The position numbers were made by a program, and so were the translations under genes. A DNA stretch of 64,000 nt from Kribbella caucasensis (GTDB taxonomy: Bacteria > Actinomycetota > Actinomycetes > Propionibacteriales > Kribbellaceae): the NCBI RefSeq assembly GCF_004361855.1, contig NZ_SNWQ01000005.1:165610-229609 (forward strand), written 5' to 3'. Shown here one piece after another: positions 28,156 to 32,514 of the stretch. Below the pieces are notes generated by a model. That model saw only the letters and a list, made by a program, of their open reading frames with translations. It made no database searches and was not told where the DNA came from. Positions within the stretch are counted from its first letter, which is position 1, and every line of letters begins with the position of its first letter.

Positions 28156-30210
28156 ATGTATCCCGAGAGCCGCCGCGGCGATATAGCGGAGACCTTGCAC
28201 GGCCGCCGGATCGCCGATCCGTACCGCTGGCTGGAGGATCCGGACTCGACGGAGACCAAGGACTGGGTGAGCCGGCAGAACGCGTTCACCGAAGCCGAGC
28301 TGGCGAGCTACCCCGAGCGGGCCTGGTTCCAGCGGACGATGACGGCGATCCTGGCCCGCCCGCGAGCCGGCGTACCGGTGAAGAAGTCGGGCTGGTACTT
28401 CGTCGGCCGCAACGACGGCACCCAGGCACAGGACGTCGTGTACGTCGCGGACTCGTTGCCCGGGCTGCTCGAAGGCGGCCGGGTGCTGATCGACCCGAAC
28501 AAGTTGTCCGACGGCGGCACCGACTCGCTCGGCAGCTTCACCGTGAGCCCCGACGGACAGCACTTCGCGTACGGGATCAACGAGAGCGGCAGCGACTGGA
28601 TCACCTTCCGGCTGCTCGAGGTCGCCACCGGGGCCGAGGTCGATGATGTGGTGACGGAGGCCAAGTTCTGTGTGGCGACCTGGCTGCCCGACTCATCGGC
28701 GTACCTGTATGTGCACTACCCGTCCAGTGGGCGCAGCGAAGGCACGGAGACGCAGGCGCTCGGGATCGCGGAGCTGAAGCTGCACCGGATCGGCACGCCG
28801 CAGTCCGAGGACGAGCTGATCGTGCGGATGCCGGAGAACGAGCGGTTCTACCTCGACGTGGAGATCTCCGACGACGACCGGTACGCCGTACTGCACATCT
28901 TCGAGGGCACCGATCCGCGCACCCGGCTGTGGCTCTACCCGATCGAGGGCAGCGCGCTCGGCGAGCCGGTCAAGGTGATCGACGAGTTCGCCTATGAGGC
29001 GTTGTTCGTCCGGATGCATGGCGATCGGCTGGTCCTGCGCACCGATCGCGACACCCCGCGCGGCCGGGTGGTGAGCAGCTCCCTGACCGCCGATTTCGTC
29101 GACCTGATCCCGGAGGGTGAAGGGGCTCTACTGGAAGCGCGCGGGACCGAGACCGGCCTCGCGACCGTCACCGTCGTGGACGCGCAACCCGTCCTCACCC
29201 TGTACGACCTGGACGGCGGCAACCCTCGCGTCGCCGACCTGCGTGGCGGCGGCATCGTCGGCATCAACGCGAGCCCCAAACACGACGAGGTCTTCGTCGG
29301 CTTCTCGTCCACCACCGACCCGACCCTCTCGTACGTCGTGTCGGCGGCCTCCGGATCGGTCCGCGCGCTGCCGGAGCTGGTGCCGTCCGGCGGAACGGGC
29401 TTCACTTCACCGGAGGTCACCGTGACCCGCCGGATCGAGCCCGGCCGCGAGGTCCCGTACTTCGTGATCTCGCGCGCGGACCTGGACCTCAACGAACCGC
29501 GGCCGACGCTGATGTACGGGTACGGCGGCTTCCGCATCCCGATCTTCGCGGACTACAAGCCGGGCTGGCCCGGATGGCTCGCGGCCGGGGGAGTGCTGGT
29601 GATCGCCAACCTCCGCGGCGGCGGCGAATACGGCGCCGCCTGGCATGACGACGGCCGGCTGAAGAACAAGCAGAACGTGTTCGACGACTTCATCGCCGTT
29701 GGCGAGCATCTGGTCAAGTCGAAGGTGACGACGCCGCAGCAGTTGGCGATCCACGGCCGCTCCAACGGCGGCCTCCTTGTTGGCGCGGTGATGGCGCAGC
29801 GCCCGGACCTCTTCGCCGCGGCGCTTCCCGGCGTCGGCGTACTGGACATGCTCCGCTTCCACCTCTTCACGGTCGGTGCCGGCTGGGCGTCGGACTTCGG
29901 GCTGCCGAGTGACCCATTGCAGTTCGAGGATCTGCTCGCCTACTCCCCGCTCCACAACCTTCGCGATGGCACGGAGTACCCGGCAACCCTGGTCGTCACC
30001 GGCGACCACGATGACCGGGTCGTCCCGTTGCACAGCCACAAGTTCATCGCGGCCCTCCAGCAAGCCCAGGTTGCCGACGCCCCGGTCTTGACCCGTATCG
30101 AGGTCGACACCGGCCACGGCTTCGGCAAACCCGCCGCCATGATCGCCTCGGAATGGGCCGACCTGCTGGCGTTCGCCGCCCACCACACAGGCCTGGACCC
30201 GACTTCCTAG
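28156..30210 (+). CDS. Prolyl oligopeptidase family serine peptidase (S9A)
   Basis: A cytoplasmic post-proline cleaving peptidase acting on short peptides. The 684-residue protein has the beta-propeller in the first two thirds (blocks such as GSFTVSPDGQHFAYGINESG and HDEVFVGFSSTTDP) and the C-terminal alpha/beta hydrolase domain. That domain has the family signature YGYGGFRIP, LRGGGEYG, the catalytic Ser536 in HGRSNGGLL, the Asp in GDHDDRVVPLHS and the His654 in DTGHGFGKP. There is no signal peptide. TAGGTT (28144-28149) six bases before the ATG suggests a leaderless transcript. Confidence 0.95.
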   Translation: MYPESRRGDIAETLHGRRIADPYRWLEDPDSTETKDWVSRQNAFTEAELASYPERAWFQRTMTAILARPRAGVPVKKSGWYFVGRNDGTQAQDVVYVADSLPGLLEGGRVLIDPNKLSDGGTDSLGSFTVSPDGQHFAYGINESGSDWITFRLLEVATGAEVDDVVTEAKFCVATWLPDSSAYLYVHYPSSGRSEGTETQALGIAELKLHRIGTPQSEDELIVRMPENERFYLDVEISDDDRYAVLHIFEGTDPRTRLWLYPIEGSALGEPVKVIDEFAYEALFVRMHGDRLVLRTDRDTPRGRVVSSSLTADFVDLIPEGEGALLEARGTETGLATVTVVDAQPVLTLYDLDGGNPRVADLRGGGIVGINASPKHDEVFVGFSSTTDPTLSYVVSAASGSVRALPELVPSGGTGFTSPEVTVTRRIEPGREVPYFVISRADLDLNEPRPTLMYGYGGFRIPIFADYKPGWPGWLAAGGVLVIANLRGGGEYGAAWHDDGRLKNKQNVFDDFIAVGEHLVKSKVTTPQQLAIHGRSNGGLLVGAVMAQRPDLFAAALPGVGVLDMLRFHLFTVGAGWASDFGLPSDPLQFEDLLAYSPLHNLRDGTEYPATLVVTGDHDDRVVPLHSHKFIAALQQAQVADAPVLTRIEVDTGHGFGKPAAMIASEWADLLAFAAHHTGLDPTS

Positions 30211-30371
30211 ATCCACGCCCCGGGCGATTCACCGCTGTGTGGACGCGCACCTGCAGGCGTCAGCCGCTCACCACGCAGGCGTGTGTCCGCACCACTCACC
30301 AACCCTGTTCTTGACAGCCTCGCCGAGCGGTGGGTCGGCCTGTTCCAGGGGTTTGGTTGAGTGCTGGAGGT

Positions 30372-31739
30372 TCACCAGATGTGCGGTGCCTCGAGGTCGC
30401 GGGGGTCGTTCGTGGGCTGGCAGCCGTGGGCGGACTCCTCGTACTGCGTGCGCGGGCCGCTCGTGGCGAGGGTGCGCACGGCGGCGACGAGGCGGTCGAC
30501 GTGTTCGCGGGTCGTGCCGAGGCCGAGGCTCGCGCGGACGGCCGTACCGTTCTCGGGGGAGTCCTCGAGCAGGCGACCGACCAACGGGTGCGCGCAGAAC
30601 TTGCCGTCCCGCACACCGATTCCGTACTCCGCCGACAGCGCGGCCGACACGAGGGTCGAACTCACGTTGTCGACGGTGAAACAGACGGTGCCGACGCGAT
30701 CCGCGTCCTCGCCGAAGATCGAGTAGGTGGTCACTCCAGGGAGCTGCGCAAGACCGGTCCGGAGCCGGGCGAGCAGGCTGCGCTCGTGCTGCTCGATCGC
30801 GTCGCGGTGCTTGGCAATCGCCGCACACGCCGCGGCCAGCGCGATCGCACCGATGACGTTGGGGGAGCCGCCCTCGTGCCGGGCCGGGCCGTCGTTCCAC
30901 ACGGTCGCGTCGGTGGAGACCGATGCGGTCGCGCCGCCGCCGTACAGGTAGGGGTCGGCCTCGTTCAGCCAGTCTGCGCGGCCGATCAGGGCACCCGCGC
31001 CGTACGGGGCGTAGAGCTTGTGACCGCTGAGTGCGACCCAGTCGACGTCGAGCTCGGCGATGTCGACCGGACGGTGCGGCGCGAGCTGGGCGGCGTCTAG
31101 GCAGATCCGCGCACCGTGGGCGCGCGCGACGGCGGCGAGCTCGGCGATCGGGAAGATCTCGCCGGTGACGTTGGACGCGCCGGTCACGACGACCAGCCGC
31201 GGACCCTCGGGCGCCTGGCGGAGCGCGTCGGCGACCGACGTGACCGCGTTGGTGGGGGAGGTGGGCGCCGCGAGCCGGATCGTGCGCTCGGTCGGCCACG
31301 GGAGGAGCGCGGCGTGGTGCTCGGACTCGAACACGATCACAGTCGCGTTAGCCGGGACCGCACGGGCCAGCAGGTTGAGGGCGTCGGTGGTCTGACGGGT
31401 GAAGATCACCTGGTCGTCCTCGCGCGCGCCGACGAACTCGTGCACCTGCTTACGGGCCCGCTCGTACCACTGGGTGGTGATCCGGGAGGCGTACCCGTTC
31501 CCGCGGTGCACCGACGCGTACGACGGCAGGGCGGCCTCGACCGCGGCTCGCACCGACTCCAGACACGGCGCGCTGGCCCCGTGGTCGAAGTTGGCGTAGT
31601 CCGTCACGCGACCGTCGGCCAACGGTACCAACAGGTCGGCGCCGACCGTGGCGGGGATGCTGCCGGTGCTGAACCGCGCGATCGCCGGCCGCGGGGTGAC
31701 GGTTGCGTTGGCAGGCTCGAGGATGGACAGGATCGACAT
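30372..31739 (-). CDS. Class V aminotransferase / cysteine desulfurase-like PLP enzyme
   Basis: A 455-residue PLP enzyme related to NifS/IscS/SufS and isopenicillin N epimerase. Visible features are the opening YANFDHGASAPC, HRGNGYASR, FTRQTTDALNLL, ASNVTGEIFPI, the cofactor Asp/Gln pair in CLDAAQLAPH, and the PLP Lys in VALSGHKLYAPYGAGAL. The C-terminal half has HEGGSPNVIG. Cysteine desulfurase or Cys/Met-related lyase is the likely activity. The frame is open to 31859, but that extension is the antisense of nothing coding: it is the translated SAM-IV riboswitch. ATG 31739 with GGGAG in front is the start. Control by S-adenosylmethionine indicates a role in sulfur metabolism. Confidence 0.9.
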   Translation of the reverse strand: MSILSILEPANATVTPRPAIARFSTGSIPATVGADLLVPLADGRVTDYANFDHGASAPCLESVRAAVEAALPSYASVHRGNGYASRITTQWYERARKQVHEFVGAREDDQVIFTRQTTDALNLLARAVPANATVIVFESEHHAALLPWPTERTIRLAAPTSPTNAVTSVADALRQAPEGPRLVVVTGASNVTGEIFPIAELAAVARAHGARICLDAAQLAPHRPVDIAELDVDWVALSGHKLYAPYGAGALIGRADWLNEADPYLYGGGATASVSTDATVWNDGPARHEGGSPNVIGAIALAAACAAIAKHRDAIEQHERSLLARLRTGLAQLPGVTTYSIFGEDADRVGTVCFTVDNVSSTLVSAALSAEYGIGVRDGKFCAHPLVGRLLEDSPENGTAVRASLGLGTTREHVDRLVAAVRTLATSGPRTQYEESAHGCQPTNDPRDLEAPHIW

Positions 31740-31751
31740 GTTGGCTCCCGG

Positions 31752-31867
31752 GAAGTCCGCACTTGCCGAACGGGGTATCCGCACGGCCTGGTCCTCACCC
31801 GGGGCACCCCACCGCGGAGGAGGGTTGCCGGCCAGCAAGCCGGGGCTTCGCGCTGACACTCATGACC
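31752..31867 (-). promoter_or_regulatory. SAM-IV riboswitch
   Basis: Read on the minus strand from 31867, the leader begins GGTCATGAGTGTCAGCG and contains AAGCCCCGGCTTGCTGGC, CGGCAACCCTCC, GCGGTGGGGTGCCCCGGGTGA and the closing GGACCAGG, then the CGGCAAGTGCGGAC pseudoknot-type element. This order and near identity match the actinobacterial SAM-IV class, which binds S-adenosylmethionine and lowers expression of sulfur-metabolism genes. The aptamer core is 31790-31867. It ends 12 bases before the aminotransferase start and would control access to the GGGAG ribosome site or transcription elongation. Confidence 0.93.
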
Positions 31868-31995
31868 TGCCGAAGACCGTAGCCAAAGGGACGCTCGTCG
31901 CGCCAGCAGCAATCTCACTAAATGAGACTTCGCGACGCATCATGAGACACGACCCCGTTGGCGCGGCGTCTTCGGGGCTGAGGCAGGATGCGGCA

Positions 31996-32514
31996 ATGAC
32001 ATGGATCGCGCCCGAGGTCGAACGTCCGGACGGCTCGCTGGTCGCCCCCGAGCACGAACTGCTCGCCGGCTACCTGAACTTCTACCGGACCACTCTGCTC
32101 TACAAATGCGCCGGTCTGACCGCGGACCAGTTGGCCGAGCGGCCGTCACCGCCGTCCAACCTGTCGCTCCTTGGCCTGATCCGGCACCTGACCAAGGTCG
32201 AGCGCATCTGGTTCCGCATCCACTTCGCGACTGGCACCCCGGCCGAGCCGCTTTTCGCCCCCGAACTGGGCAAGGACGCCGACTTCGACCTGATCGACCC
32301 GGCCCACGCCGAATCGGAGTACGAGGGCCTGATCGCCGAGTGGAAGCTGTCCGACGAAGCAGCCGCCGACCACAGCCTGGACGACCGCTTCACCTTCAAC
32401 GGCACCGAATCCACGCTCCGGATGATCTACATCCACCTGATCGGCGAATACGCCCGCCACTGCGGCCACGCCGACCTCCTCCGAGAACACCTGGACGGCA
32501 CCACCGGCGCCTGA
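31996..32514 (+). CDS. DinB-family protein (DUF664)
   Basis: A 172-residue DinB-like protein, putative thiol S-transferase fold. The LLAGYLNFYRTTLLYKCAGLT opening, LSLLGLIRHLTKVERIWFR with a metal-type His near residue 60, and the C-terminal MIYIHLIGEYARHCGHADLLRE (two further His ligands) are the family pattern. It is the second DinB-type gene in the window (the other is at 8507) but belongs to the DUF664 branch. ATG 31996 has GGCAGGA about 7 bases upstream; the frame is open further left but that part overlaps the riboswitch region. Confidence 0.88.
   Translation: MTWIAPEVERPDGSLVAPEHELLAGYLNFYRTTLLYKCAGLTADQLAERPSPPSNLSLLGLIRHLTKVERIWFRIHFATGTPAEPLFAPELGKDADFDLIDPAHAESEYEGLIAEWKLSDEAAADHSLDDRFTFNGTESTLRMIYIHLIGEYARHCGHADLLREHLDGTTGA

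Follow-up and report, generated by a model that had tools for sequence, protein, structure and literature searches.

The aptamer and the start of the gene

The window analysed here is a 64-kb stretch of a Kribbella genome, and a scan of its whole length against all of Rfam (cmscan) gave a single match, a SAM-IV riboswitch (RF00634) on the minus strand from 31867 to 31754. The match is complete (model positions 1-116) and, at 110.9 bits (E 1.3e-19), lies far above the gathering threshold of 38, which bears out the sequence-only reading, where a SAM-IV riboswitch had been proposed in this minus-strand leader. The aptamer, the gene that follows it and the signals between and around them are as follows.

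31901..31906, minus strand: probable -35 box, CTGGCG, retained 5' of the aptamer by nearly all of the 25 congeners compared
31876..31881, minus strand: probable -10 box, TACGGT, of the form TAnnnT that all 25 congeners share 8 nt 5' of the aptamer
31754..31867, minus strand: SAM-IV aptamer, full length (cmscan, RF00634), with P1 formed by 31867-31864 and 31793-31790
31840..31844, minus strand: PK-1 strand 1, CCCGG, complementary to 31802-31798 (direct reading)
31813..31818, minus strand: PK-2 strand 1, UCCGCG, in the P3 loop (direct reading)
31798..31802, minus strand: PK-1 strand 2, CCGGG (direct reading)
31756..31761, minus strand: PK-2 strand 2, UGCGGA, the last aptamer element, 6 nt 5' of the Shine-Dalgarno (direct reading)
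31740..31859, minus strand: spurious in-frame extension of 40 codons, aptamer RNA, its frame not conserved in congeners
31745..31749, minus strand: Shine-Dalgarno of the class V gene, GGGAG, in 25 of 25 congeners
30372..31739, minus strand: gene for a SufS-like PLP enzyme of the class V aminotransferase fold, 455 aa, with PLP lysine K241 and catalytic-type cysteine C382

Read directly, the blocks of the aptamer follow one another in the order in which they had been proposed, and both pseudoknots, PK-1 (CCCGG/CCGGG) and PK-2 (UCCGCG/UGCGGA), can be recognised. It is these two pseudoknots that separate SAM-IV from SAM-I. They agree with the cryo-EM structure of SAM-IV, a fold with two pseudoknots in which the PK-1 strand at 31840-31844 corresponds to C24-G28 (PMC6890682). 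A PK-2 of at least 5 bp is found in 134 of 138 distinct SAM-IV aptamers; support from covariation is nevertheless weak, because the swapped control in which PK-2 loops were exchanged did not discriminate. Two details of the earlier description needed correction. A pseudoknot strand is present, but it is UGCGGA at 31761-31756 and not the CGGCAAG that had been taken for it, which precedes it and consists of the 3' arm of hairpin P5 and the junction. The aptamer does not end 12 bases before the ATG either: the Rfam match stops 14 nt before ATG 31739.

Where does the protein begin? The longest open reading frame, opened by the GTG at 31859, has 495 codons and thus would add 40 residues to a protein started at ATG 31739, an apparent N-terminus that had already been suspected of hiding the riboswitch. 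Both the open frame and the suspicion are confirmed. Across 25 congeneric loci the distance from the start of the aptamer to the ATG is held at 128-131 nt and takes all three values modulo 3, the spacing from the PK-2 strand to the ATG stays within 16-19 nt, and GGGAG and ATG are both kept in every case; in 14 of the 25, the frame followed back from the ATG runs into a stop before it offers any start codon. As the distance along the RNA is kept but the reading frame changes, we place the start at 31739. This comparison shows the 40-codon stretch to be noncoding aptamer RNA. That the extension is translated after all, the likeness to an aptamer being incidental or the sequence serving both purposes, could appeal to the open frame from GTG 31859; against a frame that its congeners fail to keep and an Rfam score of this height, we consider it extremely improbable. 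The case is an example of how an open frame across a riboswitch can give a false N-terminus.

The CTGGCG-like box lies about 19 bp upstream of the TAnnnT box, again in nearly all of the 25 congeners, and this conserved pattern, read as -35 and -10, suggests that transcription likely starts at about the first aptamer base. A scan with an E. coli-type pattern detected no promoter in the leader. Together with the explanation that we develop below, of which it is one part, we think it quite probable that the aptamer takes up nearly all of the 5' leader in front of the class V gene. On the other strand, the divergent neighbour (31996-32514, plus) encodes a DinB-fold protein of the mycothiol-S-transferase family (PF04978, 126 bits).

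A SufS-like enzyme and its recurring SAM-IV leader

The protein belongs to Pfam PF00266 (Aminotran_5; 271.1 vs 21.5 bits, E 1.9e-80). With SufS-type (group II) cysteine desulfurases it shares the fold, the PLP lysine and a catalytic cysteine in R-x-G-x-x-C-A, and the closest among solved structures, which are SufS-type enzymes, match it at no more than 187 bits. It differs from them in forming its own clade, in being encoded by a solitary gene with a SAM-IV leader, and in its score: SufS (TIGR01979) is the best NCBIfam model, at 272 bits under a cut-off of 475.1. An identity as EgtE (TIGR04343) was rejected at 49.2 bits against a cut-off of 400, as were NifS, IscS and others, for which the enzyme likewise falls below the cut-offs. 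The residues expected of a desulfurase are in place: K241 and C382 occur in all 65 aligned homologs, K241, H141, D215 and C382 are each kept in 64 or 65 of them, and the cysteine motif reads R-D-G-x-F-C-A-H. Among named genomes, the closest proteins are those of Kribbella pratensis and K. antibiotica, at 85-87% identity.

A housekeeping sufS lies elsewhere in the genome, in the suf operon, flanked by sufC and a sufU-like gene (L198); the class V gene stands alone and is not encoded with suf genes. Comparison of its neighbourhood among homologs found no conserved neighbour genes, and a role argued from gene neighbourhood was dropped for that reason.

What does travel with the gene is the riboswitch. 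The pair of SAM-IV and class V gene is present in all 25 Kribbella genomes searched. Across the class, SAM-IV occurs in 150 of 247 sampled genomes, with metY and the class V gene as main partners, in line with the earlier characterisation of SAM-IV as an actinobacterial regulator of sulfur genes. Homologs of the enzyme were collected from the same sample at E <= 1e-60 in 92 genomes, the window's own included. Setting that one aside leaves 91 homologs. For 73 of them the list of SAM-IV sites has an entry on the gene's own strand, 11-339 nt before its aligned part, and a direct scan of 17 of the remaining 18 (one, G257, sits at a contig end and was left out) added 10 more, for a total of 83. In the other seven scanned (L036, L040-L043, L045 and L046), no Rfam family was found upstream, so that replacement of SAM-IV by another riboswitch was rejected for them. 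These seven are natural controls for the regulatory link.

Seen from the side of the riboswitch, 73 of the 149 listed sites stand in front of a class V gene and at least 41 in front of metY. Within the sample, SAM-IV is thus paired most often with the class V gene, more often than with metY; the other partners sampled, mostly metY, also include FMN reductase, a luciferase-like monooxygenase and cysteine dioxygenase. We found no description of this class-wide dominance; the original SAM-IV paper lay outside our search, and the dominance may already be known. That the class V enzyme replaces MetY was considered and given up as too weak, since 44 of the 92 genomes with the class V gene also have MetY (co-occurrence odds ratio 0.53, p 0.02, a statistic that ignores phylogeny).

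The pairing itself is not new, because it has been published for two Streptomyces. In S. lividans TK24, a SAM-IV precedes SLIV_26975, annotated as a cysteine desulfurase, in a 5'-UTR defined by RNA-seq (PMC8079986); the RNA family is the same as in Kribbella, and, judging from other Streptomyces, SLIV_26975 is probably homologous to the window gene. In S. clavuligerus, a SAM-IV precedes CRV15_21540, an "aminotransferase class V-fold PLP-dependent enzyme" (PMC8269248), the same kind of partner as in Kribbella. The Kribbella locus is a further case of this pairing. In Mycobacterium avium the same aptamer also stands upstream of a sulfur amino-acid gene, metY (PMC3774663), but this encodes another enzyme, O-acetylhomoserine sulfhydrylase. 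In the genome of the window, no MetY passes the TIGR01326 cut-off; its cystathionine gamma-synthase is above cut-off.

Because of its catalytic residues and its regulation, we infer that the class V enzyme releases sulfur, as a desulfurase or C-S lyase, and is expressed when SAM is low. Its likeliest role would be to release sulfur for methionine supply under repression by SAM. The sequence-only reading had assigned it to methionine/cysteine homeostasis: the methionine/SAM side of that proposal is supported by the presence of SAM-IV before 83 of the 91 homologs, and the reaction is deduced. Could it instead be a second general cysteine desulfurase, with Fe-S, thiolation or selenium duties, for which SAM is an indirect signal of sulfur status? 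SufS as best profile, the conserved cysteine and lysine, and the decision of the S. lividans annotators to file the homolog under thiamine metabolism (PMC8079986) all speak for such a role. We judge it unlikely: the enzyme reaches 272 of the 475 bits set for SufS, the suf operon has a SufS of its own, and the gene is linked to SAM-IV and not to suf, thi or isc genes. The riboswitch is a strong hint, open to test, that its commonest partner in the sample, for which we found no assigned reaction, serves methionine/SAM supply.

SAM-IV was also seen in other settings. The genome of the window (9.46 Mb, 89 contigs) carries two copies; the second (L002, G000:C31:78481-78596, minus strand, 93.7 bits) is followed first by a short ORF that has a Shine-Dalgarno of its own and next by a gene for a GNAT acetyltransferase. 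At L035:1956-2291, two SAM-IV stand divergently back to back, with the class V gene served by one and a luciferase-like monooxygenase by the other, and at L029 a SAM-IV precedes a gene resembling cysteine dioxygenase, behind which comes a short ORF that appears rhodanese-like by eye.

Output of the switch in Kribbella

To explain these observations, we propose that the SAM-IV leader shuts off a stand-alone SufS-like gene at the level of translation, as end-product control, and we regard this model as a whole as well supported and probably correct. SAM would bind the aptamer, as is the property of the family. The bound aptamer, with PK-2 closed, would then block access of the 30S subunit to the GGGAG 6 nt downstream, and plentiful SAM would thus turn the class V gene off. 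The enzyme, for its part, would release, from cysteine or from a related amino acid with a thiol group, sulfur for the synthesis of homocysteine and methionine. As it would feed that synthesis, repression by SAM would amount to end-product control. Against the model stand the seven homologs that lack SAM-IV and, for its metabolic part, the result that no neighbour genes are conserved.

Translational control is most likely, and the simplest model, because the Shine-Dalgarno follows the PK-2 strand at 6 nt. Constrained thermodynamic folding predicted no SAM-dependent change at that site (mean unpaired 0.24 apo vs 0.28 bound-like), so that its occlusion is argued from distance only. A search of 30200-32100 of the window detected no terminator-like site. 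The competing idea is that the Kribbella switch works chiefly through attenuation of transcription, whether intrinsic or Rho-dependent. The homologous leader of S. clavuligerus shows one of the most extreme ratios of premature to full-length reads (PMC8269248), and longer leaders with strong GC hairpins exist in other lineages. In Kribbella, however, the aptamer is separated from the ATG by just 14 nt and has no terminator-like structure nearby, in contrast to the premature transcript observed in S. clavuligerus, and we find attenuation rather improbable as the main mechanism here. Because of the premature ends in S. clavuligerus, the mechanism may differ by lineage, or may be transcriptional in Kribbella as well.

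Leaders outside Kribbella

In 85 leaders outside Kribbella, a hairpin that we call P6 starts inside the PK-2 strand in 75 cases (mean of 50 shuffles 8.7), and its 3' arm can pair instead with a segment just downstream, P7, in 58 (shuffles 3.2). The P7 segment usually lies next to the Shine-Dalgarno. Since the shuffles preserve base composition only and the 85 leaders are related, these excesses measure conserved pairing potential and not independent events. The arrangement suggests a relay, in which closure of PK-2 by SAM weakens P6 and P7 then forms beside the ribosome site. P6 and P7 (leaders L095-L168, just after the PK-2 strand) are conserved across many actinomycete genera and absent in Kribbella.

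Streptomyces leaders are longer and hold a conserved upstream ORF between SAM-IV and the class V gene, whereas in Kribbella the leader continues for 14 nt beyond the aptamer. This uORF encodes a hexapeptide, usually MSKRMR followed by a stop, and six codons with their own Shine-Dalgarno are found in 39 of 44 Streptomyces-type leaders (38 by a stricter pattern). Its start codon is GTG, TTG or ATG and codon 6 is mostly CGN. Codons 4-5 (CGA-ATG) and the TAG stop are invariant; the search pattern fixed CGA-ATG and left the stop free. CGA is a rare codon and accounts for only 12 of 690 arginine codons in adjacent genes. Of 61 Streptomyces genomes, 44 contain exactly one copy of the motif, and it is never found reversed. 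All eight of the loci inspected place it between the riboswitch and the class V gene, and nothing in the Kribbella genome matches it. We found no description of the MSKRMR uORF in the literature searched. There is a precedent for a riboswitch that acts through a uORF, in the B12 switches of M. tuberculosis (PMC11260477).

One SAM-IV/desulfurase unit might have been fitted with three output stages: direct blocking of the Shine-Dalgarno in Kribbella, a P6/P7 relay in many other actinomycetes, with P6 overlapping PK-2 and P7 abutting the start site, and in Streptomyces a first effect on translation of the uORF, which would then decide expression of the desulfurase gene. We offer this scheme tentatively, as a possibility that falls somewhat short of an even chance. 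The window itself is of modest interest; the comparative leads have more, as a series of output stages on one aptamer that includes an apparently undescribed uORF stage in Streptomyces. The uORF can be inspected at L190:1501-1521 and also at L122, L163, L189, L191-L196 and others, and a GGGC...GCCC hairpin often lies 3' of it.
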